This document shows positions 9,531-59,326 of a stretch of DNA of 64,000 nt, piece after piece. The DNA is from a cyanobiont of Ornithocercus magnificus. GTDB taxonomy: Bacteria > Cyanobacteriota > Cyanobacteriia > PCC-6307 > Cyanobiaceae. The notes under the pieces are model-generated. The model saw only the letters and a list, made by a program, of their open reading frames with translations, made no database searches and had not been told where the DNA came from. Numbering within the stretch: the stretch's first letter is position 1; each line of letters begins with the position of its first letter. A program made the position numbers and the translations under genes. Location: positions 558,001 to 622,000 of the forward strand of contig BIMP01000001.1 of the NCBI GenBank assembly GCA_007996965.1, read 5' to 3'.

Positions 9531-9931
9531 TCGACAGGGTTGTGTCTGACATCAGATCTTGACGGGAGAGCGTCCTTGCTTGTCGTTACTATTCAGCTGA
9601 GTGACACACTAGTGTTCATGTGCTGCAACATATACGGACTTTGGGACTGTCAGTTCTTGCTAATGTAATCTTTAGTCTTTAGAGAAGCTAGGTTTCTAGC
9701 CACTCCATTGGTACCAATACCTAAAGTCTACTCAGGGTTATGACCTGGATGGTCATATAGCGTCTTTGACCTTAACTATTCATAAGTTGGAAGGCAAACT
9801 GTCAGGGTAGTGGGAGGCTTAGAATCAGGCAATCTTCATAGATAAGTACTTGTCTACAGTGAAACCAAATTGTAACCCTAAGAATCTCTTGATAGTTATA
9901 GGCTGACGACTACTGCAGTCGAACCAGTCCC
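9531..9931. other. Intergenic region between divergent genes, no gene seen
   Basis: These 401 bases separate the minus-strand hypothetical from plus-strand icd. All frames are interrupted by stops and no tRNA-like fold was seen. It must hold the icd promoter. I could not single out a convincing -35/-10 pair. Confidence 0.5.
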
Positions 9932-11356: not shown

Positions 11357-11476
11357 AATAAGCTGGCGTACCCTAGCAAGTTGCGTCCCTCAGCCATGAA
11401 CCATATTAGAACCTAAATTAACACGCTTTTCAGGATTAAGATAGCAACACATACAATTAACAGCATCAATCTTAAT

Positions 11477-12832
11477 TTAAGTATTTTCCATTTGTAGCCA
11501 GGCCTCTAAAAGAGTATTCTCATCTCCAAGATTGCCAGGAAAGGTTAAAATCGGTAGGTTCCAAAAATTTCCATATTCTAAAGGCCGCACTAATGATAGA
11601 CCTGGCAGAAGCTGGCCCTCCAATTGTACTAAAGTTAGACTCAATCCTTCTGCTAATAACGTCTGGCTGGTAGTTCCTCCTTTACATATTAGGTATCCCA
11701 GTTGTGGTGCTACTGCAGCCGCCAGGCGTCCTGTCAGCTGCGCTAGCTTCTTAGAGAAGCGGCGTTTGGCTTGTCTTGTAGCAAAGCTCAACTCATCATG
11801 ACTAGTGAATAGCACTGGTGTATGATCATCTTCAAGTGTCTTATAGAGCTGGATAAGCCATTGTTGCTCTAGGCTAGCTAAAGTCAAATCTGGTAAATTT
11901 CCCTCAAAGGCACGAGCAATCTGATGCACAGGTAATTCTATGCCTCGGCAGCGATCTGTTGCCAGCAACTGCTTCAACTGCTGTCTAGCCAGGGGTACAT
12001 GGGATCCAACCAGCACCAGCCCAGGTAGAAGTTCTCCAAGAGAGCTGCGGCGACGAAACCCTGCTAGTGCTCGCGCGTTTGCAGGCTGGGATCCTGGATT
12101 AGCTAGTGCCTTTACTAAGCTGGCGGCTGCTCGAAATAGAAATCGCCTCTTGCCAGCAAGAGATCGCACCACATTGCCAAGAGCTGTCAGCTGTCGCTGT
12201 TGCTCAGCATCTACCACTACTATCTGATTATTTGTTAATCTCTGTAGATGGTTGCTCAATGCTATCATGCCAGTACTGCTCGTAGCAGCCTCATCCAACT
12301 CTTTCAGGCTCAGGCGGTCTACATTAGCAGCACGAATAATGCCCTTACTTTTCTCCTCGACCCACTCAGCTAAATTACTAGTATTGTAGCCGAACAGATG
12401 ATCTTGAGCAAATGGGGACATATGGACTGGTTTACCATAAAGTCGGTGCACACCATCTACAGTCGTGCGCCCGCCTTCTAAGAATGCGGGTGCATGCAAT
12501 GTGGCATCAAAAGGACCGAAATAAGTAGCAAGTACAGCAGGTTCTAGTATTCCATGGCCGCGCAGAGTTGAGTCACCACGACTCACAAGCAACACATTGT
12601 GTCGGGATTGCTTATTAGCAGACAGTGCAGCATCAAGACAACGACATATTTCTCGGTTACGTGCTGCTGCATCTTCCCTGGACATTGCTCGCGTATCTGC
12701 TAAGATAAAAAGAAATGGGGAAGGATGATTTAGCCCATACTGCAAAGTGTCAACATCCCAACGCAGTAATAACAAACACCCATGTACTGTTTGAGAACCA
12801 GTGGGGTCATCATCAATCACTACGACCTTCAC
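11477..12832 (-). CDS. Four-carbon acid sugar kinase family protein (DUF1537)
   Basis: DDDPTGSQTVHG at residues 7-18 is the hallmark of the four-carbon acid sugar kinase N-terminal domain, and GGTTSQTLLAEGL near residue 395 is the nucleotide-binding part of the C-terminal domain. Characterised members phosphorylate threonate, erythronate or related acids with ATP in the cytosol. The 451-residue length fits both domains. The gene stands alone, without the aldolase or dehydrogenase that usually accompanies it in catabolic operons, so the substrate here is unknown. The start is GTG at 12832, which puts the motif at its normal distance from the N-terminus. Confidence 0.8.
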   Translation of the reverse strand: MKVVVIDDDPTGSQTVHGCLLLLRWDVDTLQYGLNHPSPFLFILADTRAMSREDAAARNREICRCLDAALSANKQSRHNVLLVSRGDSTLRGHGILEPAVLATYFGPFDATLHAPAFLEGGRTTVDGVHRLYGKPVHMSPFAQDHLFGYNTSNLAEWVEEKSKGIIRAANVDRLSLKELDEAATSSTGMIALSNHLQRLTNNQIVVVDAEQQRQLTALGNVVRSLAGKRRFLFRAAASLVKALANPGSQPANARALAGFRRRSSLGELLPGLVLVGSHVPLARQQLKQLLATDRCRGIELPVHQIARAFEGNLPDLTLASLEQQWLIQLYKTLEDDHTPVLFTSHDELSFATRQAKRRFSKKLAQLTGRLAAAVAPQLGYLICKGGTTSQTLLAEGLSLTLVQLEGQLLPGLSLVRPLEYGNFWNLPILTFPGNLGDENTLLEAWLQMENT

Positions 12833-13305
12833 AGCTTTTGTTGCAATTTGGTCATTGATATCCTTGTAATGATAATTTGTGGGACCATGAGTTGCTTAAG
12901 CTAAAGCTTATAACCTAGTCTCATGGCTATATTCAGCTTGTCATAGGGAGATAGGATTGTAGGGTCGCAGTTTACTCAAGAGCTATTTAAGGTAAAACTA
13001 TTCAGCCCGGATAACTTACCATACTAGCAATTTGCTGATTTGCTATCAGATCGTGTAATTTGCAGTACCGTATATATACTCATGCAACTACTTATTGTTT
13101 TTTCTAGAGTAAGTACTATTTAAGGTCATCAAGATCCTAAGATCAGAGGAATCCAGTTAGAATAGGATAGGGTAGCTTCTATAAGACTAGCGTGACAATA
13201 GTTAGTGTGTCACTGGTCTCTAGCGTAAATTTTGCGGTACTATTTAGCTATATCATGGGCTATAGTTAACATGGCTTTAGTCTTGATTATCGCGCGGAAA
13301 TTCTC
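12833..13305. other. Intergenic region, no gene seen
   Basis: The 473-base stretch is AT-rich, with stops in all frames at short intervals. I saw no tRNA, no strong terminator and no recognisable gene remnant. It lies between two minus-strand genes, so the DUF1537 gene and the hydrolase are unlikely to share a transcript. Confidence 0.5.
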
Positions 13306-14181
13306 TTAGCTAGAACTGGTAGAATGTTGCATTGTGGATGTCTGTATCCAGTTGAGCAAAGCGATATTTACTTGGTCAGGTACTTCATCATGAGGGCAGT
13401 GACCTGCTTGAAGAACTATCTCAGTGGTAGCAACAGGTGCATGTCTTTGGAAAGCAGCGCGCCGTCCTTCAGCATTAATCCAGGGGTCGCGAATGCCCCA
13501 AAGGAGTAGCAATGGTACACGCAGCTGCGCGAAAAGTTCGTCAAGAGGCTGACCTTGGGGAATGTTAAATACAGTGCGGAACACTCCAAAGGCTCCAGGC
13601 TCAAGGGAAGGCCGGCGAATTGACTCAACCAGCTCTTCGTCAACATTGGTGTGGTCTATATAGACTTGCTTGAGCGTGCGACGGATTGTTCTTGGGCGAC
13701 GTAGATTTTCGAATAGTAAGCGCTGTAGCAGGGGATTTTTGAGAAGAGTCCTGAATATAGTAGCTCGTATCCCTGACGTTTGCCGCTGCTCGTCACTGAA
13801 GGGCCCAGCGGCATTGAGCAAAACCACACCGGCAGCATCTTTTCCAAGACTAGCACCAGCGGCAAGGGCAGCGAAACCCCCTAGGGAATTACCTACCAAT
13901 ACTGTAGGGCGTCCTATACGCTCGTGTATGTAGTACAGAAGCTGGTCACGCCAGAGAATGCCACCATAGGCAAGGTTGGTGGGCTTACTACTGCGACCAA
14001 AGCCCAGTAGGTCTATTGCATGCACCTCATAGTGCTGGCTAAGGAATGGGATGTTATGCCGCCAGTGATCAGTAGAGGCTCCAAACCCATGTACTAGCAA
14101 TAAGGCTGGACCAGAGGGTTGGAGTGGGGCACGGCATAGCGCGTGGACACTATGTCCCTGGAAAGTCCAGGAGCTAGTCAT
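13306..14181 (-). CDS. Alpha/beta hydrolase
   Basis: The 291-residue product has the alpha/beta hydrolase core. The oxyanion region is LLVHGFGASTDHWR, the nucleophile elbow is GNSLGG (Ser), the acid is in LLLWGIRDPWI (Asp) and the base is in AGHCPHDEVPDQVN (His), so the triad is complete. Such proteins hydrolyse esters, amides or haloalkanes. The substrate cannot be read from sequence. The ATG at 14181 gives MTSSWTFQGHSVHAL. A GTG at 14208 would add nine residues. The gene is divergent from the small membrane protein at 14258. Confidence 0.85.
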   Translation of the reverse strand: MTSSWTFQGHSVHALCRAPLQPSGPALLLVHGFGASTDHWRHNIPFLSQHYEVHAIDLLGFGRSSKPTNLAYGGILWRDQLLYYIHERIGRPTVLVGNSLGGFAALAAGASLGKDAAGVVLLNAAGPFSDEQRQTSGIRATIFRTLLKNPLLQRLLFENLRRPRTIRRTLKQVYIDHTNVDEELVESIRRPSLEPGAFGVFRTVFNIPQGQPLDELFAQLRVPLLLLWGIRDPWINAEGRRAAFQRHAPVATTEIVLQAGHCPHDEVPDQVNIALLNWIQTSTMQHSTSSS

Positions 14182-14257
14182 AGCGGCATCTGGAGCAGCA
14201 GTCACCACGGCTTAAGTATGGTCCGCGATGCTAGGAAGCTACGCGGCGATATGACTC

Positions 14258-19866: not shown

Positions 19867-20264
19867 TATCCCTCCCTTAACTCTAGCTGCGGGGCAAGCT
19901 TGACTCGGTCTATTAGGTGTAGCGCCGGCTACGAAACTAGCTCAAACTTTAACTTTTTAGACCTTCACTTGTTCGGATCTTAATTGCAGATTCACAGCCC
20001 CGTAAACAGGCCCTACTAATATTCTATTAAGGTCAGTATAGGTCAATTCCGTGAACTTACTAAATCTTAGCTAGGATGTTCTCTTGAAAATAGTTTTTTG
20101 TACTCTGGTCAATAGATAGCTAGCTTCCTGGGAGACGAAAATTTTAGGCTCAGTCCTGATTGCCCAAGTTTATAACTCCTGAAGGAGAAACTTGACTTAT
20201 ATCAAATTCCTAAAGTTGGGCATTCGGCTTTAGTCTCAGAAGTGAGACTTTACTCTATCTTTAA
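19867..20264. other. Intergenic region with a 7-bp hairpin, no gene seen
   Basis: No coding frame or tRNA was seen in these 398 bases. A perfect inverted repeat AGTCTCA/TGAGACT (20232-20249, loop of 4) lies 16 bases after the stop of the ABC-2 operon. It may end that transcript, although no T-run follows on the minus strand. Confidence 0.45.
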
Positions 20265-21059
20265 TCAGCTCGATGCAGAAGTATAACAACTCAGAGCATA
20301 TAACCAGAAAAAGCGAGCAATTGCAAAGAACATACCTGCTAGCCCTAAGCCAGTTAAGAGCATTGGCGCTGTGACACGGCCTAGGATTACTTGAGCAGGT
20401 ACGGTCGTGAGGAAAGCAACTGGCAATATCAGTGTAAATATTAAGCGCAGCACTGCTGGATAAGCGCTAACAGGATATCGTCCCGACGCAAGGAGCACCC
20501 GTAGCACTTCAGTAGCATTCCAGGTTTTTACGAACCAGATGCTGGTGGCTGCAATTAAAAACCATATGGAATAAAGGATTAGGCTGCCAGATATCAACAT
20601 GCCTAATACTGTCATCAACGCTGCGGGCGAGAATGGGGCACCAGCATGAGCAGCTGCCCAAGCTGTCAGTGTCAAGCCAAAAGCCATTTCAGGCAACCCA
20701 GCAGGCTCTAGATCTCTCAGAGAGAGCCAAAATTGGCTATCAATAGGTTTTAGCAACACAAAATCGAGGGTTCCTTCACGTACATAAGTGACAATAGCTC
20801 CAAGATTGGGACGTAGCCAAGCGCTAGACATGCCATCAAAAGTTGTGTATAATCCTTGTACTATTAGTGCCTCTTCCCAAGTCCAGCCTCCAAGATTGCG
20901 ACCCTGCGGCCCAAAGAAAAGGGATAAGGTAAACAGACTGCCAGTCAAGCTGAGTCCTATGGCTAGCAAGTCAATTAGCACATTTGCCTGATATTCCAGC
21001 TGGCTCGCTAAAGCAGTGCTCCAGAAACGTCGCAGGCTTAACCAGTAGCGTTTCATCAC
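20265..21059 (-). CDS. ABC-2 transporter permease, second subunit
   Basis: The 264-residue protein has six hydrophobic segments and the ABC-2/DUF990-type pattern: FWSTALASQLEYQANVLIDLLAI at the N-terminus, then SRGLYTTFDG-like loop (IVQGLYTTFDGMSS) and YVREGTLDFVLLKPIDSQF, a stretch typical of this permease family. It pairs with the permease at 21060 and the ATPase at 21857 to form a three-gene exporter. The start is GTG at 21059 or ATG at 21056, directly after the TGA of the previous gene. The transported substrate is unknown; relatives are linked to glycan, lipid or drug export. Confidence 0.82.
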   Translation of the reverse strand: MMKRYWLSLRRFWSTALASQLEYQANVLIDLLAIGLSLTGSLFTLSLFFGPQGRNLGGWTWEEALIVQGLYTTFDGMSSAWLRPNLGAIVTYVREGTLDFVLLKPIDSQFWLSLRDLEPAGLPEMAFGLTLTAWAAAHAGAPFSPAALMTVLGMLISGSLILYSIWFLIAATSIWFVKTWNATEVLRVLLASGRYPVSAYPAVLRLIFTLILPVAFLTTVPAQVILGRVTAPMLLTGLGLAGMFFAIARFFWLYALSCYTSASS

Positions 21060-21857
21060 TCATGCTCCCATAGCACTATAGTGGCTTACGCCCATACGCC
21101 AGAGAATTAGTACTATTGGTAGTAACACCAAGGTCCAAGTGAACTGTGTGATAAAGCCAACAACTATATCAACTGGTTGTCCAGAGAGGAGCCTGGCTGG
21201 AAAATCTACCAGGTAAGGAAAAGGCGTCCATTTCACCACAGCTTGTACTGCTGGAGGGAAAGCACTTAGCGGTGCCAATAAGCCAGAGAGGAAAAGAAAG
21301 GGAATAAATAACAGCCTCTCAAGAGCACTGGCTTTCTCGCTCCAGAAGCAGAGAGCTGAAATTAAGCTTTGTAGCAAGAAGCCAATAGCAAAGGCTAACC
21401 AAATAGCCAACCATGCCATTAAAAGTACTTTAGGGGAAGGCAGCCAAAGTGCAGCAGGATTTAGCAGAAAGAATACTCCGGCGATGCCAAAAGCAAACGG
21501 AAGACGAGTTAGCTGTTCTCCAAGGTGGGCGGCTACATAACGCCAGAGTGGGTGCAGCGGCTGGAGTAGATATGGTGACAGGCGGCCCAGCAAGGCGTCC
21601 TCTTCAAAGGCATACACCACCCAAACCACGGAGAATTGACGTACTAGAAAAGCACTTAGGAAGTACCGATCCAAGCCAATTCCCTCAAAACCGAAGCTAT
21701 CGCCTGCACCACTGCCTCTCCAGAGGCTGAGCATGATGAATGGCAAAACACCGGAAAAAGCCCAGAGAGCGATCTCAGCTCGGTACTCAAGCATGTGAGC
21801 ATACTGAGATCCAAGCAGAGCGCGCACAATCGGTCGATTAAGGCCGAAGATTCGCAT
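21060..21857 (-). CDS. ABC-2 transporter permease, first subunit
   Basis: The 265-residue protein has about six membrane segments. YAHMLEYRAEIALWAFSGVLPFI at the N-terminus and VYAFEEDALLGRLSPYLLQPLHP resemble its partner at 20265, as expected for two half-permeases of one exporter that arose by duplication. Its ATG shares a base with the TAA of the ATPase gene (TAATG), which couples their translation. The order ATPase-permease-permease is the usual layout for this family. Confidence 0.82.
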   Translation of the reverse strand: MRIFGLNRPIVRALLGSQYAHMLEYRAEIALWAFSGVLPFIMLSLWRGSGAGDSFGFEGIGLDRYFLSAFLVRQFSVVWVVYAFEEDALLGRLSPYLLQPLHPLWRYVAAHLGEQLTRLPFAFGIAGVFFLLNPAALWLPSPKVLLMAWLAIWLAFAIGFLLQSLISALCFWSEKASALERLLFIPFLFLSGLLAPLSAFPPAVQAVVKWTPFPYLVDFPARLLSGQPVDIVVGFITQFTWTLVLLPIVLILWRMGVSHYSAMGA

Positions 21858-22831
21858 TAGAGTTTTCCCTGGCGAAACAAAGAGCCAATCAGCTCATCAA
21901 TTGGAGGGTCATTGACCTCAAGATCTACGACTGTGAAACGCTCCAGTAGATGTGCCACTGTAGTCGTGAGGCGATCGCGGGACACTAGCAGTGTCACTTC
22001 CCTATCTTTGAGAGTTTCCAGATCACCCAACCCAGCAAATTTTTCTGGTTGAATAGGCTCCTGCAGCTCAAAGTGGACACGCCGGTGTGGTGCTAAATTA
22101 GTAGTCAGAGATTCTAGGGGACCATCATGAAACAAAGAGCCCTCGTGAATCAACAATACTCGTTGACATAAGGCTGTGATGTCAGCCATGTAATGGCTGG
22201 TCAACAGTACTGTAGCACCAGTACGGCGGTTGTAGTCTGCTAAAAATTGACGCACTCTTGCCTGAGCGTTGACATCGAGACCTAAAGTTGGCTCGTCAAG
22301 GAATAACACTTCTGGTTGATGCAGCAACGCTGCCAGCAGTTCTGCCTTCATGCGCTGGCCAAGAGAGAGTTTCCTTACAGGCTGAGTGAGCTCCTTGCCA
22401 AGTTCTAGCATTCCAGCTAGTTCATTGATTCGTAGCTTCGCTTCATGATCACTGATGCCATAAACAGCAGCGTTAACTCGCAGTGAGTCTAGCGGTGGCA
22501 AGTCCCAGAGCAGTTGCTGTCTCTGTCCCATTACAAGCGTGATGCGGCGCAGGAAATCTGGATGTCGGCGGTGAGGAAGATGCCCAGCCACCTCTAGTTT
22601 TCCTGCACTGGGATGAATGAGACCACATAGCATCTTTAGCGTAGTAGTCTTGCCTGCTCCATTTGCCCCAAGGAAACCAACCATCTCACCAGGCGCAATG
22701 CAAAATGAAACATCGCGTACTGCCATTACATCCCGATGACGGCGGCGCAGAAAGTGCCGCAAAGTCCCAGTGAGACCAGGCTGTTTTTCCGCAACCCTGT
22801 ATGTCTTCCTGAGCTGCTCAACCTCAATCAT
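21857..22831 (-). CDS. ABC-2 transporter ATP-binding protein
   Basis: This is the ATPase of the exporter. Walker A is GANGAGKTT, the signature is LSLGQRMKAEL (a SLGQ variant common in ABC-2 ATPases) and Walker B is VLFLDEPTLGLD. The H-loop lies in LLTSHYM. A C-terminal domain of about 90 residues follows, as in the polysaccharide/drug ABC-2 branch. The ATG at 22831 (MIEVEQLRKTY) is preferred over a TTG at 22852. The long insert TGTLRHFLRRRHRD before the core strand is a feature of the branch that pairs with DUF990 permeases. Substrate unknown. Confidence 0.88.
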   Translation of the reverse strand: MIEVEQLRKTYRVAEKQPGLTGTLRHFLRRRHRDVMAVRDVSFCIAPGEMVGFLGANGAGKTTTLKMLCGLIHPSAGKLEVAGHLPHRRHPDFLRRITLVMGQRQQLLWDLPPLDSLRVNAAVYGISDHEAKLRINELAGMLELGKELTQPVRKLSLGQRMKAELLAALLHQPEVLFLDEPTLGLDVNAQARVRQFLADYNRRTGATVLLTSHYMADITALCQRVLLIHEGSLFHDGPLESLTTNLAPHRRVHFELQEPIQPEKFAGLGDLETLKDREVTLLVSRDRLTTTVAHLLERFTVVDLEVNDPPIDELIGSLFRQGKL

Positions 22832-23183
22832 CGCTAAATCGAGGCGTGCCAATCATTCATGACTCATTCTTGGTAAGGCCTTACCTTCAATGTTACTCCA
22901 TAGTCTCTTAGCAGCCGTAGGAGAATTTGGTTTGGCTATAGGGGTTCAGAGTTAACAGTCGGCAACTGGATACATATAATCCGCTTCCGCACAATTGGTA
23001 CATCAGATGTGAGCTTTTGTTAAGAAAATATCTAGGCTCATGCGAGCAAGAGTTCTTTCCAGGTTTCAGCTAAAGGCTAAAGTAGTTGAGAGCAAAGACC
23101 TCAAAGTAGGAGTCTTTAAAGAACTGTAGAAGAGGTCAGAAAACTCCAGGTCTAGCAACGGGCGTAAAAGTAGAGCGAAGACA
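22832..23183. other. Intergenic region, no gene seen
   Basis: Between the ABC-2 ATPase start and the 3' end of the tRNA, all frames are broken. It should contain the promoter for the ABC operon. No riboswitch or repeat was recognised. Confidence 0.45.
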
Positions 23184-23257
23184 CGGGGCTAGCGGGACTC
23201 GAACCCACGGCCTACGGTTTAGGAAACCGTCGCTCTATCCATCTGAGCTACAGCCCC
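23184..23257 (-). tRNA. trnR: tRNA-Arg (anticodon CCU)
   Basis: Read on the minus strand, a full cloverleaf folds: acceptor GGGGCTG pairs with TAGCCCC (one G-U), the D-arm is GCTC..GAGC, and the anticodon arm is ACGGT-TTCCTAA-ACCGT with CCT at positions 34-36. The T-arm is GTGGG-TTCGAGT-CCCGC. No CCA is encoded. The anticodon CCU reads the rare Arg codon AGG. It is divergent from rnpB, with roughly 60 bases between them. Confidence 0.95.
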
Positions 23258-23314
23258 GGAATGCATGGATTATGGTTCTTTAGGATCCAAGGCTTCAAGG
23301 GGTCATTATAGAGC

Positions 23315-23721
23315 TTGAAAGCAGGCGAGGTGATCGCGGCTGGACCATCTCCACTATTAGGTAGGATATGGAATCTGGCTGAGGAAAGTCCGGGCTCCCT
23401 AGATGGCCAGGCTTGCTGGGTAATTCCCAGTACGGGTGACCGTGAGGAGAGTGCCACAGAAACACACCGCCGATGGCTCTGTGGGATTTCCTGCAGGCAC
23501 AGGTAAGGGTGCAAAGGTGCGGTAAGAGCGCACCAGCAGCATCGAGAGGTGCTGGCTCGGTAAACCCCGGCCGGGAGCAAGGCCTAGGAACAACTGTTGG
23601 CCATCTACCTAGTTCCGCCACCACGTGCCGCTTGAGGTTGTCGGTAACGGCTATCCCAGATAGATGATCGCCCCCCTTTTGCGAAAGGGAGAACAGAACC
23701 CGGCTTATGTCCTGCTTTCAC
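23315..23721 (+). ncRNA. rnpB: RNase P RNA (type A)
   Basis: The catalytic RNA that trims tRNA 5' ends is recognised by its universal core: GAGGAAAGTCCGGGCTCC near 23383 (5' half of P4 region) and ACAGAACCCGGCTTA near 23693 (3' half). The ends close on each other as helix P1, GAAAGCAGG (23317) with CCTGCTTTC (23711-23719). The length of about 405 bases suits a cyanobacterial type A RNA. A nested inverted repeat follows at 23721-23752 (CTAACT/AGTTAG around AACACTAGTGTT) and may mark the 3' end. Apparent short reading frames here are not genes. Confidence 0.95.
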
Positions 23722-24020
23722 TAACTCAACACTAGTGTTAAGTGCTAGTTAGTCCGAAAGAACGCTCTAGAAGTTTCACAACTCGAACAAGCCAATTTGC
23801 CTATTTTATCTAGAAAGGTTAATTGACAATTCAGTTAAACTACCTTAGGTATAGTATTAGTAGCAATAGTATTGCAATAGATACTATGCTTACTTAGCCT
23901 AGGTAACCTATCTCAATTTTAGCCTCGACCACTCAGTTAACTAGAATTTTGATCTAAGGTAAGAGATGCTATTAGACGCTTACTCCTAACTGATGAGCAT
24001 GATAGCAACATGTAACAGTA
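23722..24020. other. Intergenic region with nested palindrome downstream of rnpB
   Basis: After rnpB lies CTAACT-(AACACTAGTGTT)-AGTTAG (23721-23752), a hairpin within a hairpin, with no T-run. The rest up to rnc is AT-rich without a coding frame. It should contain the rnc promoter. Confidence 0.4.
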
Positions 24021-24809: not shown

Positions 24810-25055
24810 GGGGGTTTATTGGCAACAAGTAGTTTTGCGTTAAAGATCCAGCATTGCATGAGCTTAAGAATACTATAAGAATACTATTTGAGAGAAAATA
24901 TGAAGGGTAAGACACACTCATGTGCACGAACTTGAGGCATTGTTATCTACCTACATCCATGTGCTACTGAAAGGGCTTATTTAGCTATAAGTTACTCTTA
25001 GCAATATCTGCAACAGCTCACCATGGGTGTGTAAAGAATAGTTGGCTAGCCATTC

Positions 25056-25235
25056 TTAAGCCACGACCAGGTCACTCAGGCGCAACGTCACTAACTTGTC
25101 CCAGTTGCCACCCTCAAATAATACAGCAGCACGGTCACCACTAATACGCTGTACAAAGCCAGTATAACCTCGGTAGATCGAACATTTGTCTATCACCACT
25201 ACGGTGGAACCGGGTAGAATTGGCTGAGTAGTCAT
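25056..25235 (-). CDS. ndhS: NAD(P)H dehydrogenase subunit S
   Basis: This 59-residue gene reads MTTQPILPGSTVVVID at the start, then YRGYTGFVQRISGDRAAVLF and EGGNWDKLVTLRLSDL, the SH3-like fold of the NdhS family (PF11623, formerly DUF3252). In plants and cyanobacteria NdhS sits on the thylakoid NDH-1 complex and docks ferredoxin for cyclic electron flow. Length (about 60) and the EGGNWDKLV block are typical of the cyanobacterial form. ATG start at 25235, TAA at 25056. It is convergent with rnc and divergent from the rimM remnant. Confidence 0.88.
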   Translation of the reverse strand: MTTQPILPGSTVVVIDKCSIYRGYTGFVQRISGDRAAVLFEGGNWDKLVTLRLSDLVVA

Positions 25236-25251
25236 AGGTTGCTATGGCAAG

Positions 25252-25715
25252 TGGTTGGGGTATCACCAGCAGTAGACCTTGCCACTATATCGTGCCTGAA
25301 GCGATGCTTACCTGTAAGGTAAAGGAAATAGTTCTGTGGTTGAGCCAACCTTATATCCCAAGTATATATAGCAGTATATAGACTAGTCTAGTTATTGGCT
25401 TCCTACAAAAAATCTACACACTTCAGGATTGCACTAACTACTAAAGACATAGCATAGAGGACTTAGTGGTGGGTCTTCTAAGTAACTAGAGGCTTTATCC
25501 AATTATAATCGTTTGTGGTGCAGCTACAAGAGATTAATGTTAGAGGTCAGCTAGTAGTAATGTCTAAACAGCCACGGCAGCAGCCTGCTAATGTTAATTT
25601 AATAGCCAACCAGTAAGTGCTGATCCCTTTCGCAGACGAGATTTTCCTGTGTATATATTGGTGTCAGTTGCACTTAATATGATCACTAAAGCCATTGGGC
25701 CTTGAATATGTCTAG
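25252..25715 (+). pseudogene. rimM: Probable decayed rimM (ribosome maturation factor)
   Basis: The 535-base gap before manC is the place and size of rimM in related genomes (as I recall them). Fragments in RimM order are visible. WL at 25252 is followed, one frame over, by GITSS (25259), like the family's WLxVGxITS start. V-Q-L-Q-E-I near 25517 resembles the FHLLDL block. VLIPFADEIF (25617-25646) matches the LLIPFVxEIV block, and KPLGLE (25689-25706) matches PPPGLLE. The last two share a frame interrupted by TGA at 25680, and spacing between blocks is close to that of intact RimM. Stops and frame changes preclude a product. This is a reading by eye, not an alignment. Confidence 0.5.
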
Positions 25716-25770
25716 TAGGTGACAAACTTAGTGCAGCTAGGCAAAGCTAGGAAGCATTAACAGCCATCCT

Positions 25771-29130: not shown

Positions 29131-29159
29131 AACAAAAGAGCCCGGCAGTAGCCAGGCCC
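29131..29159 (-). terminator. Rho-independent terminator of psaC
   Basis: On the minus strand, directly after psaC, GGGCCTGGC-TACT-GCCGGGCTC forms a 9-bp stem (two G-U) with a 4-base loop and is followed by TTTTGTT. It begins about 30 bases beyond the psaC stop and ends one base short of the glmS start codon (29130). It would stop most psaC transcription before glmS. Strong by structure; not tested. Confidence 0.85.
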
Positions 29160-29188
29160 GAGACTAAGACTGTCTGGACATCAAGAGT

Positions 29189-29577
<389 letters not shown>

Positions 29578-29820
29578 ATGTCCCAGGAAGACATCCTCGA
29601 AAGAGTCAGTCAGATTGTGACGCAGCAGCTCAGTACTGAGGCACTAGACGTGAAGCCCGAATCGAATTTTACGAACGATCTGGGTGCAGATTCTCTTGAC
29701 ACCGTGGAACTCGTGATGGCCCTCGAGGAGGAATTTGAAATTGAGATCCCTGATGAAGCCGCCGAAAAAATCGCTACCGTCGGCGACGCCGTCGACTACA
29801 TCAAAAAGGCAAAGGGTTGA
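29578..29820 (+). CDS. acpP: Acyl carrier protein
   Basis: ACP carries the growing fatty acyl chain on a phosphopantetheine arm. The attachment serine is in [12 protein letters not shown] (near residue 38). The 80-residue length and acidic helices ([18 protein letters not shown]) are typical. The ATG at 29578 ([10 protein letters not shown]) is chosen, as an upstream ATG at 29554 would add eight residues atypical of ACP. It leads acpP-fabF-tkt, all on the plus strand with an 8-base gap to fabF. Confidence 0.97.
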
Positions 29821-34321: not shown

Positions 34322-35758
<1,437 letters not shown>

Positions 35759-35779
35759 CTATAGCTCAGGATCAACCTT

Positions 35780-35860
35780 GGTCACTTCCCTGCATCAGCA
35801 TGACCCGAGTCAGGTTCGGAGGGTGTGATCTCAGCCGCCCTAGTTGGGGGCACCCCTAGT
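35780..35860 (-). promoter_or_regulatory. TPP riboswitch (THI element) controlling thiC
   Basis: On the minus strand the conserved THI-box elements run in order: GGGGTGCC at the 5' side, CTGAGA, ACCCTCCGAACCTGA, CGGGTCATGCTGATGCAGGGAAGT at the 3' side. This is the TPP-binding core that folds on thiamin pyrophosphate and represses the next gene, most likely by masking translation start or by termination. It sits about 50 bases before the thiC ATG. Match to the consensus is unmistakable. Confidence 0.95.
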
Positions 35861-35898
35861 GGTTCACGAAACCTAGCAACTATCATTGAGTAAAACCG

Positions 35899-36513: not shown

Positions 36514-36540
36514 CGCGGTTAGCAGCAGCGATGCCCATCA

Positions 36541-36759
36541 TTATCCTGTTACTTTAGGATCTTGCTTGTACAAAGCTTGCAGTAGGTGGTGGTGACGCTG
36601 CCGGCGAATCTCACTGCTGATTGCCAAACCTGATCCCACCAGCAGAGCTGGTAGAGCCTGTAGCCGGTGGCTGCCCTGACGCTGCAGACAACCGGCTAGA
36701 GACAGCAAAATCAGCAGTGGGACCGACATGGTCAACCAAGTATGGGAGCGAGCGTTCAT
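36541..36759 (-). CDS. Small membrane protein, DUF3188-like
   Basis: The 72-residue product has a hydrophobic segment at about 10-25 (MSVPLLILLSLAGCLQ) and a second at about 34-48 (LQALPALLVGSGLAISS) with a basic tail (RRQRHHHLLQAL). The block LAGxLQRxGSxRLQALPALLVG resembles DUF3188 of cyanobacteria, from memory. Its ATG overlaps the stop of the amidohydrolase by 4 bases (ATGA), so it is translated from the same message. Function unknown. Confidence 0.6.
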   Translation of the reverse strand: MNARSHTWLTMSVPLLILLSLAGCLQRQGSHRLQALPALLVGSGLAISSEIRRQRHHHLLQALYKQDPKVTG

Positions 36760-40851: not shown

Positions 40852-41853
40852 TCAATTTATTCTAGCAGTAATAACTGCTGGCAATAAACTAGTACGATAG
40901 GCTAATGTAATTAACCCAGAAGCCATACCCTTATTAGTAACAACCAATTGTAATGGCGAGCCAGTATCTGGGCCGACTTTTATAACCGGAGCTAAACCTT
41001 GATTAACGATTACCTTGCCATTGTTTCCAAATATCACTATTTGCATTAACGGTGTGCCCTTGGCAGTAAGGATTAAGTGGTTTCTGGGCAGCATACAAAT
41101 TGTAATCAAGCGAGCTCCACGAGCTGGTACCCAAGCAGATAAGGTTGTGGATTCACTCGTCCAGGCGATAACTGATTTGATATTCACGTCCTCAAGCCTC
41201 TGCAAGGCAGCCGCATACCAAAGCTGACGATAAGGCTCTGGCGGCTTGCGACCTAAAATGGCCCTAGGCATAAATCTTGACTGAATACTGATATTGATGA
41301 ACCGATCCACAGCTGGAGCACTAATACCTGCATCAGCAAGTGCTCGAAGCTGCGCTCGCCAGTCAACAACCTTCAGATTTCCAAGTCGCAAACGTAGCTG
41401 GGGGGGTAGCTGCTCAATGCGGGTTAGCCACTCTTCAGCTAGTTCACTCCAAACATGTTGTAATAACGCATCCTCAGCAGAGCTATTTAGCAAGCGGCTT
41501 GCCGAGTTAAGGTCATGGTTCAGCATGCTCGTGTCTACTAACTGGAAAAACCAGCTACGGTTAACTTGCAAGGCTCGTAGCCTGCTAATCAGATATTGAC
41601 GTTGACTCATATCTGCCGATGACGGTACGGTAGTTATTGATGAATAGTTCACTAAATCCTCTGGCATATTAGATGACAATCTGGCTCGGTGCGTGCCACT
41701 ACGGCCTAGCAGCAACCAGCCAACTGTAGTAACAAACAATACTAATAGAAATAGCACCCCAACCATAGGCCAGATATGACCCTCTCTAGCTTGCTCGCGC
41801 TCAGCTATGCGTCTACGGGAATCTAGACCGCAACTTGCAAACCATACATACAT
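40852..41853 (-). CDS. Hypothetical single-pass membrane protein
   Basis: The 333-residue protein has one strong hydrophobic segment at about 30-48 (PMVGVLFLLVLFVTTVGWLL) and a large soluble part. The N-terminal side has RRRIAEREQAR, so the topology is probably cytoplasmic N-terminus with the rest outside. The C-terminal half looks beta-rich (LILTAKGTPLMQIVIFGNNGKVIVNQG), possibly a domain of its own. I do not recognise it. It lies alone, downstream of smpB on the other strand, with a 549-base gap upstream. Confidence 0.6.
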   Translation of the reverse strand: MYVWFASCGLDSRRRIAEREQAREGHIWPMVGVLFLLVLFVTTVGWLLLGRSGTHRARLSSNMPEDLVNYSSITTVPSSADMSQRQYLISRLRALQVNRSWFFQLVDTSMLNHDLNSASRLLNSSAEDALLQHVWSELAEEWLTRIEQLPPQLRLRLGNLKVVDWRAQLRALADAGISAPAVDRFINISIQSRFMPRAILGRKPPEPYRQLWYAAALQRLEDVNIKSVIAWTSESTTLSAWVPARGARLITICMLPRNHLILTAKGTPLMQIVIFGNNGKVIVNQGLAPVIKVGPDTGSPLQLVVTNKGMASGLITLAYRTSLLPAVITARIN

Positions 41854-42402
41854 AACCTAGATATAAGCTCTGTGGGTTCTGATACCAGTCAAAACCTGAT
41901 CGCAGGAATACTGCACATATTCCCTGCTTAGTTGGCATGTCTCAATATAGTACTGCCGGTCGAGATACACAGCGTTGTTTGCCTGAAGCTTTTGTGTTCT
42001 ACTGCAGATGCTAGAAAACTACAATTGCACAAACTCCGAACACCAAGCATACAAATTATGTCCAGATAATAAACTACCTTAGCAGCAAAGCCACTCCTCA
42101 AGGGCTTGCTATACAAGTAAGGTTTCTAGTCACTGTTACAGGATCAAGAGCTACAGACCTGCACTTCAATTTAGGTGAAGTCACATTTATTACAAATCTT
42201 AACAGAGTCCACAGCTTACTTAAAGTTGTCTAAAGATTCCCACTAGAAGTCATTGCCCTCAAAACAAAGCTACAGCTATAGCGTAGTATGCCCAATAGCG
42301 AGCCCCGTTCCCATTTCAGGCTTTATTTATCAGGAAAAGTGCCACTAGCTGCGCTAAATCCTCATATAAGGTATCTAGGGTCTACTGAACGTTAGCACCG
42401 CT
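41854..42402. other. Intergenic region, no gene seen
   Basis: 549 bases between two divergent genes. A 62-residue frame on the minus strand (41928-42116) has no family features and looks random. No tRNA or hairpin with a T-run was seen. It must contain the egtB promoter. Confidence 0.45.
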
Positions 42403-44600: not shown

Positions 44601-44979
44601 GCTAGGACTATGGTAAGGTTTTTAGATTTACTGGGGCTAATGCACGGGGGGCTGTCTGCTTTAGGCAACTCTAGGTAATAGAAGATCGCGAAGAAACATT
44701 ACTTGCTATCAGGGCTGACAATCTAGAATAGGTAACAGATACAGAATAATAACCTCAGAGTCAGCGGTCAGCCAGACAATCTAGAACAGTCGAGCTGTTT
44801 AGGCTGTGCATGTAAATGCACGCTGCAAGTAGTAAGGGCTAGGCCAAAACTTCTCTTGAGGAACTAAATTCTAGAGGGGGTATCAAATCCTGTTCAGAGC
44901 TTGATAAGCATGTAGTACTGGAGGAGATCAAGCCTTAAAGCTAAGCTAATGGCATCAACACAGACTAAAGCCAACCAGA
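44601..44979. other. Intergenic region with a 12-bp direct repeat, no gene seen
   Basis: No coding frame was seen in these 379 bases. GACAATCTAGAA occurs twice (44717-44728 and 44775-44786), 58 bases apart. This may be chance or an element of regulation. No tRNA or strong terminator. Confidence 0.45.
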
Positions 44980-47624: not shown

Positions 47625-48011
47625 TAAACGGACAGCACGATATCAATAGGGGTGGGAAGCGCATAGACTTGCAGGTTACAGATTGTCTTAACAATTGCTT
47701 ACTATCCCCGATTAGAGAGCACTGGCATAGAGATCGAACTGCTGAGACGACTCAGTCATCAAGTTCTCAGCTTTGGTCTATACAAGTACGAGCTCGCTAA
47801 ACCTAAATCAAAGATGACGCTTCACAACTGCACAACTATCTGCAAAGCCTGTCTTTTTCCCTACGATAGCATCGGACTTTTCTAACTATGCCCTACGATC
47901 ATGCGATATAGTAAATCTTTTGCGAGGGTATTATAGAAAAACTTGTTTTCTATTGAGTCCCAAGTAAATAAACTCTAGGTTTAGCCGAAGTATGTTATTC
48001 AGATTTAGTGT
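47625..48011. other. Intergenic region, no gene seen
   Basis: 387 bases between mreD and the response regulator, both minus strand. Frames are broken. AGAAAA-ACTTG-TTTTCT (near 47936) is a weak hairpin. The promoter of the response regulator must lie here. Confidence 0.45.
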
Positions 48012-53085: not shown

Positions 53086-53601
53086 GTGGACAAAAGTCTT
53101 CGCAGAGACACCAAGGCTTTGAGCCCGTGTGTATCGCAATCTACAGATGAAGGATGGGTCCTCGATGATTTAGCCTCCACCTACGCTTTGGGCCGAGAGC
53201 TTGCGCATAGGCTAACAGCACCAGACTTGCTATTACTGCAAGGCCCACTTGGTGTTGGCAAGACTTCCTTGGTACAAGGCTTGGCAAGAGCTCTAGGAAT
53301 CATGGAGCCGATAACAAGCCCAACGTTCGCACTAGCACAGCACTACTCACAGGGCAAGCCACCGTTAGTACACCTTGATTTGTACCGCTTGGACCATCAA
53401 CCAGCCGCAGACGATCTACTTCTGCAGGAAGAGGAAGAGGCTCGATCTATCAATGCACTAGTAGTGGTGGAGTGGCCTGAAAGATTATCTTTAGCCTTAG
53501 GTCTTGGCGACGCTTGGCATCTGCAACTCACATATCATCCTAGTGGTGGGCGGCTAGCACAACTACATATGCCGGACGCGTCTAGGAAATTCCTAACGTG
53601 A
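53086..53601 (+). CDS. tsaE: tRNA threonylcarbamoyladenosine biosynthesis ATPase
   Basis: TsaE is a P-loop ATPase needed for the t6A modification of tRNAs reading ANN codons. Walker [20 protein letters not shown]. The [11 protein letters not shown] and HLDLYRLDH blocks match. 171 residues with the GTG at 53086; a GTG at 53044 would overlap the ahcY start and is less likely. Its 3' end overlaps the PfkB gene by 67 bases in convergent orientation. Confidence 0.9.
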
Positions 53602-54662: not shown

Positions 54663-55208
54663 TTAGGTAAATTTATTGCTGCCCTCTTTATTACTTTTTA
54701 GGTATATGTGCAGTGCATTAATCATATGAATGCTTGCTGCTGGGAACGGGTATAATAGTAGACTCCCTACTTTTACCCAGCGCACCTGCTGACTCACTAG
54801 TGGCTTGGCCTCGCCACCGATATGGTTGCAGAGATGTACTGAGAAGCTTAATTGCCTATAGCCATAGGTGTGATCTAGGCTGATTAGCTGTTTCCCAACT
54901 TTTACTTCTAAACCTACCTCTTCACGTAGTTCACGAGCTATACATTCCTCAATAGTTTCCCCTGGTACTTGTTTACCGCCTGGAAACTCCCAGAGATCAC
55001 CTAAGGAGTCCCTTGGTAGACGTTGAGCAATTAGCACATGACCATGTTTGTTAAGTATTATGCCCACACCTATTGAATGTGACATGTAGTCCTTGCCAGG
55101 ATTGTCCACTAACATACTAAATGCCATCGCTACAATTAGTGTATTACTTTCGGGCAAAGGTCTTGCGGATCGATCAGTATTAGTCCGGATTTTTAGGATC
55201 TTTTCCAA
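54663..55208 (-). CDS. mutT: NUDIX hydrolase, MutT-like
   Basis: The NUDIX box is complete: GGKQVPGETIEECIARELREEVG (GX5EX7REUXEEXGU). MutT clears 8-oxo-dGTP to prevent A-C errors. The start may be the ATG at 55208 or the ATG at 55085 (MSHSIGVGIIL); the latter fits MutT better. The 41 extra residues of the long form are not family-typical. It ends 60 bases before the PfkB start, same strand. Confidence 0.8.
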   Translation of the reverse strand: MEKILKIRTNTDRSARPLPESNTLIVAMAFSMLVDNPGKDYMSHSIGVGIILNKHGHVLIAQRLPRDSLGDLWEFPGGKQVPGETIEECIARELREEVGLEVKVGKQLISLDHTYGYRQLSFSVHLCNHIGGEAKPLVSQQVRWVKVGSLLLYPFPAASIHMINALHIYLKSNKEGSNKFT

Positions 55209-55781
55209 ATTAAAAACTAGTAGGCAAGGCTAGGTGGAAGAGCCTGTATTTTTGTCAAGAGTTGCTGTAGCCATAAATTGTGTATAATTTTATAGAATAT
55301 TGAATATATCGTTTTCACAATTAATGGTTAAGACTAGGATTACTGAAGGCTTATTGCTGCCAGCTTAGCTAGTCACAGGTAAATACATACTATAGCAAGG
55401 CTAGACTCTAGTCAGCTTAAAAATATTAAATTCCTGACATATCATGTGGGCAGTTCCTTAGAACTTTTTATTAGCGTTCTGTTACTCCACTTGCAGTCAG
55501 GTAACCACTTATAGTTAGGTTAGGTTAACGGCTTTATCGGAAGGGTTTGAACAAAAATCGCATTATGATACCCTATTCTACATGCTTTGGCTGATGTGTA
55601 GTATAATTGTATTGGGCACTAAATTACAGTAAGCATTGGGTAACTTAATTAAAAGTATTGTTGATTGGTGGGTCTTGGTATTCTTAACTGTTATATTGTT
55701 ATAGGGTGTATGTGGCCGTGCAAATTACGATTATGTGTGCATGTTTATAGCTTGCTTATTAAAGATATAGGTAGTGATTAC
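55209..55781. other. AT-rich intergenic region, no gene seen
   Basis: 573 bases, the longest gene-free stretch here. It is very AT-rich with many TAA and TATA stretches. No coding frame longer than about 30 residues, and no tRNA. It lies downstream of the sigma-factor gene and upstream of mutT. Confidence 0.5.
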
Positions 55782-58880: not shown

Positions 58881-59326
58881 GCCACTAATGAGTTGTATTT
58901 TTAGTACTTACACAGTCTAAATGTCTAGCATTTGGGGTGCAGAATCTGAGCTGAGCCATAGACATAAAATTAACCAAGCCAGGATATTGGTCCGCGCCGT
59001 AAGTAAATTATCTAAAGTGCGCGGCAACCTCCCCCACTATCCCACTCACTAGTATCTCCATTGAGAATTTAACTATCCGAAATATACATACTAACATCCT
59101 GCCGAAACGTGTATAACCTGAATTTAGAACAAGTATTTCAACGAATAAGGTATAGACTTTGCTGCCAAGCAAAGATTTATGATAGCGATTACAGTGTCGC
59201 TCTGCAAACCCTAAGCTTTTGTTCTCCTAGCTGACGTTGGTCATTACCAATATGGGCAGAACTTATCCATTCCATATACTGTGACTCAGTCCGGCGACAA
59301 GCCAAAAGCATAACATCCCATAGAAT
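58881..59326. other. Intergenic region, no gene seen
   Basis: 446 bases between convergent gpx and gyrB. In memory, related genomes have crcB-type genes near gyrB. I looked for crcB motifs here and found none. No tRNA. It could be a decayed gene, but nothing supports that directly. Confidence 0.4.

Follow-up and report, generated by a model that had tools for sequence, protein, structure and literature searches.

The DNA between 12833 and 13305 in the genome of the cyanobiont of Ornithocercus magnificus (probably OmCyn) is free of genes, which raises the question of whether this and similar stretches nearby are scars left by lost genes, functional non-coding DNA, freshly broken genes or faults of the assembly. 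A sequence-only reading had listed ten such places, called them unusually frequent and, pointing to a rimM remnant, proposed recent gene decay. We analysed the window, i.e. the whole stretch of 64,000 nucleotides (G000:C1:558001-622000, from a genome of 1,878,918 bases in 16 contigs that is 95.6% complete), annotating its open reading frames, tRNAs and matches to Rfam families and running a home-made gene finder on it. Using tblastn we anchored on it the syntenic regions of ten relatives, namely five members of one genus (G004, G033, G053, G031 and G050; the G004 genus below) and G001, G003, G010, G011 and G007, along with that of a second probable symbiont, G059 (probable CregCyn). The gene order in most of the window is conserved across the ten relatives and G059. 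The stretches termed scars in Table 1 are non-coding DNA lying in the syntenic position of genes that the cyanobiont has lost.

Table 1. Gene-free stretches of the window and the features within or beside them
Feature	Coordinates	Strand	Length or product	Comparison or basis
Scar	9531-9931	.	401 bp	Genes, 1.1-3.1 kb, in G004, G033, G053, G031, G050, G011
Scar, place of glcF	11357-11476	.	120 bp	glcF in G004, G033, G053, G031, G050, G011, G007, G059
Flanking gene	11477-12832	-	Sugar-acid kinase family	PF07005/PF17042 (Pfam)
Scar	12833-13305	.	473 bp	2.0-4.1 kb with two or three genes in 10/10 relatives
Flanking gene	13306-14208	-	Alpha/beta hydrolase	Pfam
Gap without comparator	19867-20264	.	398 bp	Adjoins cyanobiont-only ABC transporter cassette
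Stretch free of long protein genes	22853-24020		1168 bp	Listed earlier as the 22832 stretch
tRNA-Arg (CCT)	23183-23258	-		Within the 22832 gap
RNase P RNA	23318-23722	+		Rfam, 240.9 bits (gathering 100); within the 22832 gap
Possible scar	24810-25055	.	246 bp	275-276 aa gene in G004, G033, G053, G050 only
ndhS, small gene between two scars	25056-25235	-		PF11623
Scar, place of rimM	25236-25770	+	535 bp	rimM in all ten relatives and G059
Retained C-terminal half	40852-41853	-	333 aa	555-613 aa frame in G004, G033, G053, G031
Scar, N-terminal half of the preceding gene	41854-42402	-	549 bp	About 260 aa lost
Likely scar	44601-44979	.	379 bp	Two small genes, 731-756 bp, in five relatives of the G004 genus
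Ambiguous gap	47625-48011	.	387 bp	430-437 aa gene in G004, G033, G031, G050, G059
Retained C-terminal NUDIX domain of MutY-NUDIX fusion	54663-55208	-	181 aa	Own ORF
Scar, place of mutY glycosylase half and alpha/beta hydrolase	55209-55781	.	573 bp	GC 0.349
Scar, place of two genes	58881-59326	.	446 bp	Genes present in G004, G033, G011

Coding density, gap frequency and spacing

In our curated gene list protein-coding sequence makes up 86.7% of the window (87.6% with RNA elements), which is below the line of 90% drawn in the sequence-only reading. The finder assigns 84.3% of the window to coding sequence, i.e. it undercounts relative to the curated list, and 80-81% of a 400-kb sample drawn from this contig as twenty pieces of 20 kb; that it misses some genes is also evident from an open 285-codon frame in L109:7102-8016, which it had called gene-free. 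With this finder the cyanobiont falls below the syntenic regions of free-living G001, G003 and G010 (0.89-0.905) and is not separable from those of G004 (0.825) and G011 (0.845); the values for G033, G053, G031 and G050 (0.67-0.77) are implausibly low and were set aside. Elsewhere in the genome the same rough finder reports gene-free stretches of 0.9-1.9 kb (L101, L114, L117, L119 and L120), some of which have tRNAs inside them.

Gaps of at least 300 bp number 12.0 per 64 kb in the window and 13.9 in the 400-kb sample by the same finder, versus 4.0-6.4 in six of the ten syntenic regions (G033, G053, G031, G001, G003 and G010), 9.6 in G004, 10.4 in G011, 12.0 in G050 and 12.8 in the probable symbiont G059. 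These counts were demoted from being our main test because G003 and G010, when sampled at random in 80-kb stretches, proved as gap-rich as the cyanobiont (12.0 and 15.2). Finder gap counts alone thus separate the cyanobiont from G003, G010, G004, G011 and G050 inconsistently.

A comparison anchored on orthologs, unlike the finder counts, does separate the genomes. Among adjacent pairs without a lost gene (24-35 ortholog pairs per relative, leaving out scar-flagged pairs and relative intervals of at least 400 bp), the spacing in the cyanobiont minus that in the relative has a median of -0.5 to +6.5 bp across eight relatives, so that most spacing is unchanged; the total spacing in these pairs is 28-62% higher in the cyanobiont. 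The gaps do exist and exceed those of most relatives in length, and the majority of the long gaps listed earlier coincide with genes still carried by relatives: seven (9531, 12833, 25236, 41854, 44601, 55209 and 58881) correspond to lost genes or gene halves, one is ambiguous, one is without a comparator and one holds RNA genes.

The 12833-13305 gap and the glycolate oxidation genes

The counterpart of 12833-13305 always includes an aldose-epimerase-like gene, which is accompanied by glcE in G004, G033, G053, G031, G050, G011 and G007, by a gene for an FMN lactate/glycolate oxidase in G003, and by those for an FMN oxidase and a D-lactate-dehydrogenase-like (Dld-like) protein in G001 and G010. 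In the glcE-bearing relatives glcF sits one gene away, where the cyanobiont is left with 120 bp. The scar at 12833-13305 has a GC content of 0.372, and its longest stop-to-stop frame is 33 codons versus 56 expected from shuffles; tblastn with the relatives' proteins found no matching HSP in it and the HMM scores lay within those of shuffles. Judged by comparison with the relatives, the genes lost at these two places are an oxidase gene (glcE going by the nearest relatives), an aldose epimerase homologue and glcF, and glcD, located elsewhere, is likewise gone.

Consistent with this, genome-wide searches of the cyanobiont assembly (95.6% complete) recovered no true GlcD, GlcE, GlcF, lactate/glycolate-type FMN oxidase or Dld. 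Among 14 genomes that are at least 90% complete, GlcD (about 500-590 bits) is present in 11, and a further two (G003 and G010) have an FMN oxidase scoring >400 bits, such that 13 possess one or the other and the cyanobiont is the sole exception; these glc searches covered genomes other than the high-light-type Prochlorococcus G017. In the neighboring genus, with G059 included, all 19 genomes of at least 90% completeness have glcF and all 19 have GlcD.

We abandoned a stronger statement, that the cyanobiont lacks every glycolate-oxidising enzyme, in light of the glcD2 of PMC9723591 and of a retained FAD_binding_4 protein of 446 aa, which shares 59% identity with one from G004 and may be this glcD2. 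In the parts of that paper available to us, MIT9312 and Synechococcus are stated to carry a glcD2, with glycolate oxidation by glcD2 alone left open, and high-light Prochlorococcus is reported to be without GOX/LOX and MIT9312 without glcE/glcF. Going by this report, the glycolate gene state of the cyanobiont is not unique among picocyanobacteria: Prochlorococcus MIT9312 likewise has no glcE/glcF, no GOX/LOX and just a glcD2-type gene (PMC9723591), but it is free-living and the cyanobiont differs from it by the scars at the lost loci.

It is conceivable, if rather doubtful, that with the loss of the glycolate dehydrogenase locus photorespiratory glycolate goes unsalvaged and is excreted, so that it would be among the main carbon gifts that the dinoflagellate host receives. 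According to the available portions of the respective papers, a mutant of Synechocystis that lacks the two GlcD enzymes excretes >99% of its glycolate with no need for high CO2 (PMC8106553), and complete photorespiratory gene sets are kept by all studied cyanobacteria (PMC6278635). Against such a role stand the retained putative GlcD2 and the GlcDEF kept by the probable CregCyn; indeed, a loss of glycolate oxidation common to both dinoflagellate symbionts was rejected because G059 keeps glcD, glcE and glcF, the stop counted in its glcF falling near the C-terminus. A search of the literature on glycolate in cyanobacterial symbionts, Prochloron and picocyanobacteria, whose coverage did not extend to the original OmCyn description, found no link to OmCyn. 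The glycolate loss makes the question of a symbiont-to-host gift directly testable.

Other lost genes and small genes in apparent gaps

Beyond the glc genes, rimM is absent from the cyanobiont in genome-wide searches and present in 13 of the 14 genomes that are at least 90% complete. A true mutY (259-348 bits) is found in as many of these, the cyanobiont showing just a 48-bit Nth-like match; the Nudix box, by the pattern that we take as its definition, is intact in the retained NUDIX domain. The N-terminal half lost at 41854-42402 was presumably kinase-like, and the product of the retained half matches no Pfam family. We take the genes lost at 9531-9931, whose counterpart in both G010 and G001 is short (159-205 bp), to have coded for a glycosyltransferase, a GtrA-like protein and, in some relatives, a nucleosidase-like protein; those at 58881-59326 were presumably crcB-like and the gene found in place of 24810-25055 ion-channel-like. 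In three cases, i.e. at 24810, at 44601 and for the kinase-like half at 41854, the genes are seen only in the G004 genus, so that a gain in that genus is possible.

Gene decay is upheld by the genes or gene halves that relatives carry at seven of the ten gaps and by the genome-wide absence of rimM, and what had been vaguely described as empty DNA becomes a set of named losses at set positions: glcDEF, rimM, the glycosylase half of mutY and two presumably crcB-like genes. The possibility, raised in the earlier reading, of same-size gaps in free-living relatives applies at 47625, where G001, G003, G010 and G011 have no gene and 74-360 bp, the gap in G001 and G011 being about as long as in the cyanobiont.

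A copy that moved elsewhere could lie in the missing part of the 95.6% complete genome. This completeness and the 16 contigs, together with an OmCyn assembly that is reportedly derived from single-cell work, might also be taken to indicate that the gaps are artefacts of assembly or amplification; we regard this as scarcely credible, given that intact syntenic genes flank each scar on both sides and that glcDEF, rimM and mutY do not occur elsewhere in the assembly.

All ten gaps listed earlier do lack a long protein gene, but tRNA-Arg and the RNase P RNA are encoded in the 22832 stretch. Similarly, the apparent gap at 29131-29816 contains psaC and acpP, and that at 53181-53534 contains tsaE. 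These elements, ndhS, a small membrane protein at 36514-36755 and a TPP riboswitch show that some gaps are functional; however, as an explanation of the scars, functional non-coding DNA in the form of regulatory regions, small RNAs or small genes is unlikely. No scar has an Rfam match or frames beyond those of shuffles, and none has DNA similarity to the relatives except for one 22-bp match at 9531. Additionally, the region 12500-13600 has no terminators and promoter-like sites at chance level, and the GC content of the scars is near that of fourfold sites.

The small membrane-protein-like gene lies at about 36574-36750 (minus strand) in its spacer and shares 52-54% identity over 59 aa with a gene of 75-83 aa in four relatives, and the riboswitch, at 35770-35867 (minus strand), is upstream of the gene at 34322-35728. 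A separate observation concerns 20265-22852 (minus strand), between 19866 and the RNase P RNA, which codes for an ABC-2 type cassette of two permeases and one ATPase without a syntenic counterpart in the compared relatives.

Age and origin of the scars

The remaining alternative is that genes broken recently still lie inside the gaps. The absence of rimM and other genes, the length of the rimM scar, which is about that of the gene, and a faint trace resembling rimM in the expected orientation speak for it. We searched nine scars that had matching queries with the relatives' proteins by tblastn, and nothing rose above shuffled controls apart from a match to flanking ndhS: a rimM match of 23.9 bits (null maximum 19.6) was rejected as being located in this sequence. 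HMMs built from the relatives for 11 families exceeded all 30 shuffles only for rimM and glcF, and the latter was discounted for lying on the strand opposite to that of the gene. The rimM score, 1.6 bits from two short collinear pieces on the expected strand of 25236-25770, was exceeded by 5 of 382 scored shuffles (400 were made), and is at most a whisper; the rimM remnant of the earlier reading is therefore reduced to a faint trace that some shuffles surpass. For the kinase-like half at 41854 nothing scored above 21.2 bits, a figure without a shuffled control.

The same methods do find remnants in G059, which served as a positive control: a glycosyltransferase at 46.5 bits and a fragmentary epimerase at 11.1 bits are readable at the corresponding places of this probable CregCyn. 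Recent pseudogenisation is thus highly improbable, with no scar remnant standing clearly above shuffles. The nine scars pooled have a GC content of 0.399, versus 0.376 at fourfold sites and 0.447 in conserved spacers; they contain no long frames and, within the 464 kb of the genome searched, no repeats. Given that the sequence of the scars is random-looking, lacks a convincing remnant and approaches fourfold sites in GC, we infer that the losses are old and at a late, unreadable stage, and that the decay was not recent as had been claimed. Likewise, the window has no convincing recognizable pseudogene, and if its gaps arose by erosion this again implies a late stage.

The gene-free stretches are thus very probably, for the most part, scars of genes lost one by one, long ago, in an obligate cyanobacterial symbiont whose inheritance is probably vertical. 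Inside the chamber of the host such genes would have become dispensable and been inactivated, and substitutions along with small deletions would have turned each into unrecognizable DNA near mutational equilibrium, with weak selection against surplus DNA leaving 120-573 bp per place. In contrast, a streamlined Prochlorococcus-like genome would keep a few tens of bases after a loss. MIT9312 has such a streamlined genome, and in G017 (32.6% GC), after the one clean loss, that of the mannose-1-phosphate gene, rimM is separated from the following gene by about 40 bp, whereas the cyanobiont does not show such very short spacers. Hence, drift-driven erosion in a symbiosis of long standing is a better fit than streamlining, drift and the symbiotic lifestyle being the presumed force and setting. 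The loss of a DNA-repair gene, mutY, is accompanied by a shift towards A+T: the GC content is 48.7% in the window and 37.6% at fourfold sites, compared with 58-60% in the regions of G004 and G033.

Erosion of this kind is already known: in the available text of PMC4285135, the large intergenic regions of Serratia symbiotica SCc are similarly interpreted as ancient, not-yet-degraded pseudogenes. The latter is an insect symbiont, whereas the lineage of the cyanobiont is marine and photosynthetic and less strongly reduced.

In an unrooted tree of 34 proteins and eleven taxa (G007 left out; genes present in at least 7 of 10 taxa at no less than 40% identity), the cyanobiont branches between the G004 genus and a clade that appears to be Prochlorococcus-like, both with 100% support; no second genome of its genus was found among the 30 genomes searched. 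This position is compatible with, and not proof of, that reported for OmCyn at the base of subcluster 5.1 (PMC11150560). The available sections of that paper report a host-restricted life and vertical inheritance for OmCyn, and describe OmCyn and CregCyn as independently acquired symbionts derived from marine picocyanobacteria, in which about 59% of the ancestral proteome is kept. These sections count protein groups and hold nothing on coding density, pseudogenes, intergenic or non-coding DNA or glycolate, unlike the scars described here locus by locus. On their account of independent acquisition (PMC11150560), the two symbionts would represent two stages of a single process, with readable remnants in the probable CregCyn and unreadable scars in the cyanobiont. 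In G059 we noted a gene-free interval of 1.6 kb (G059:C1:422996-424611) with a readable glycosyltransferase remnant.
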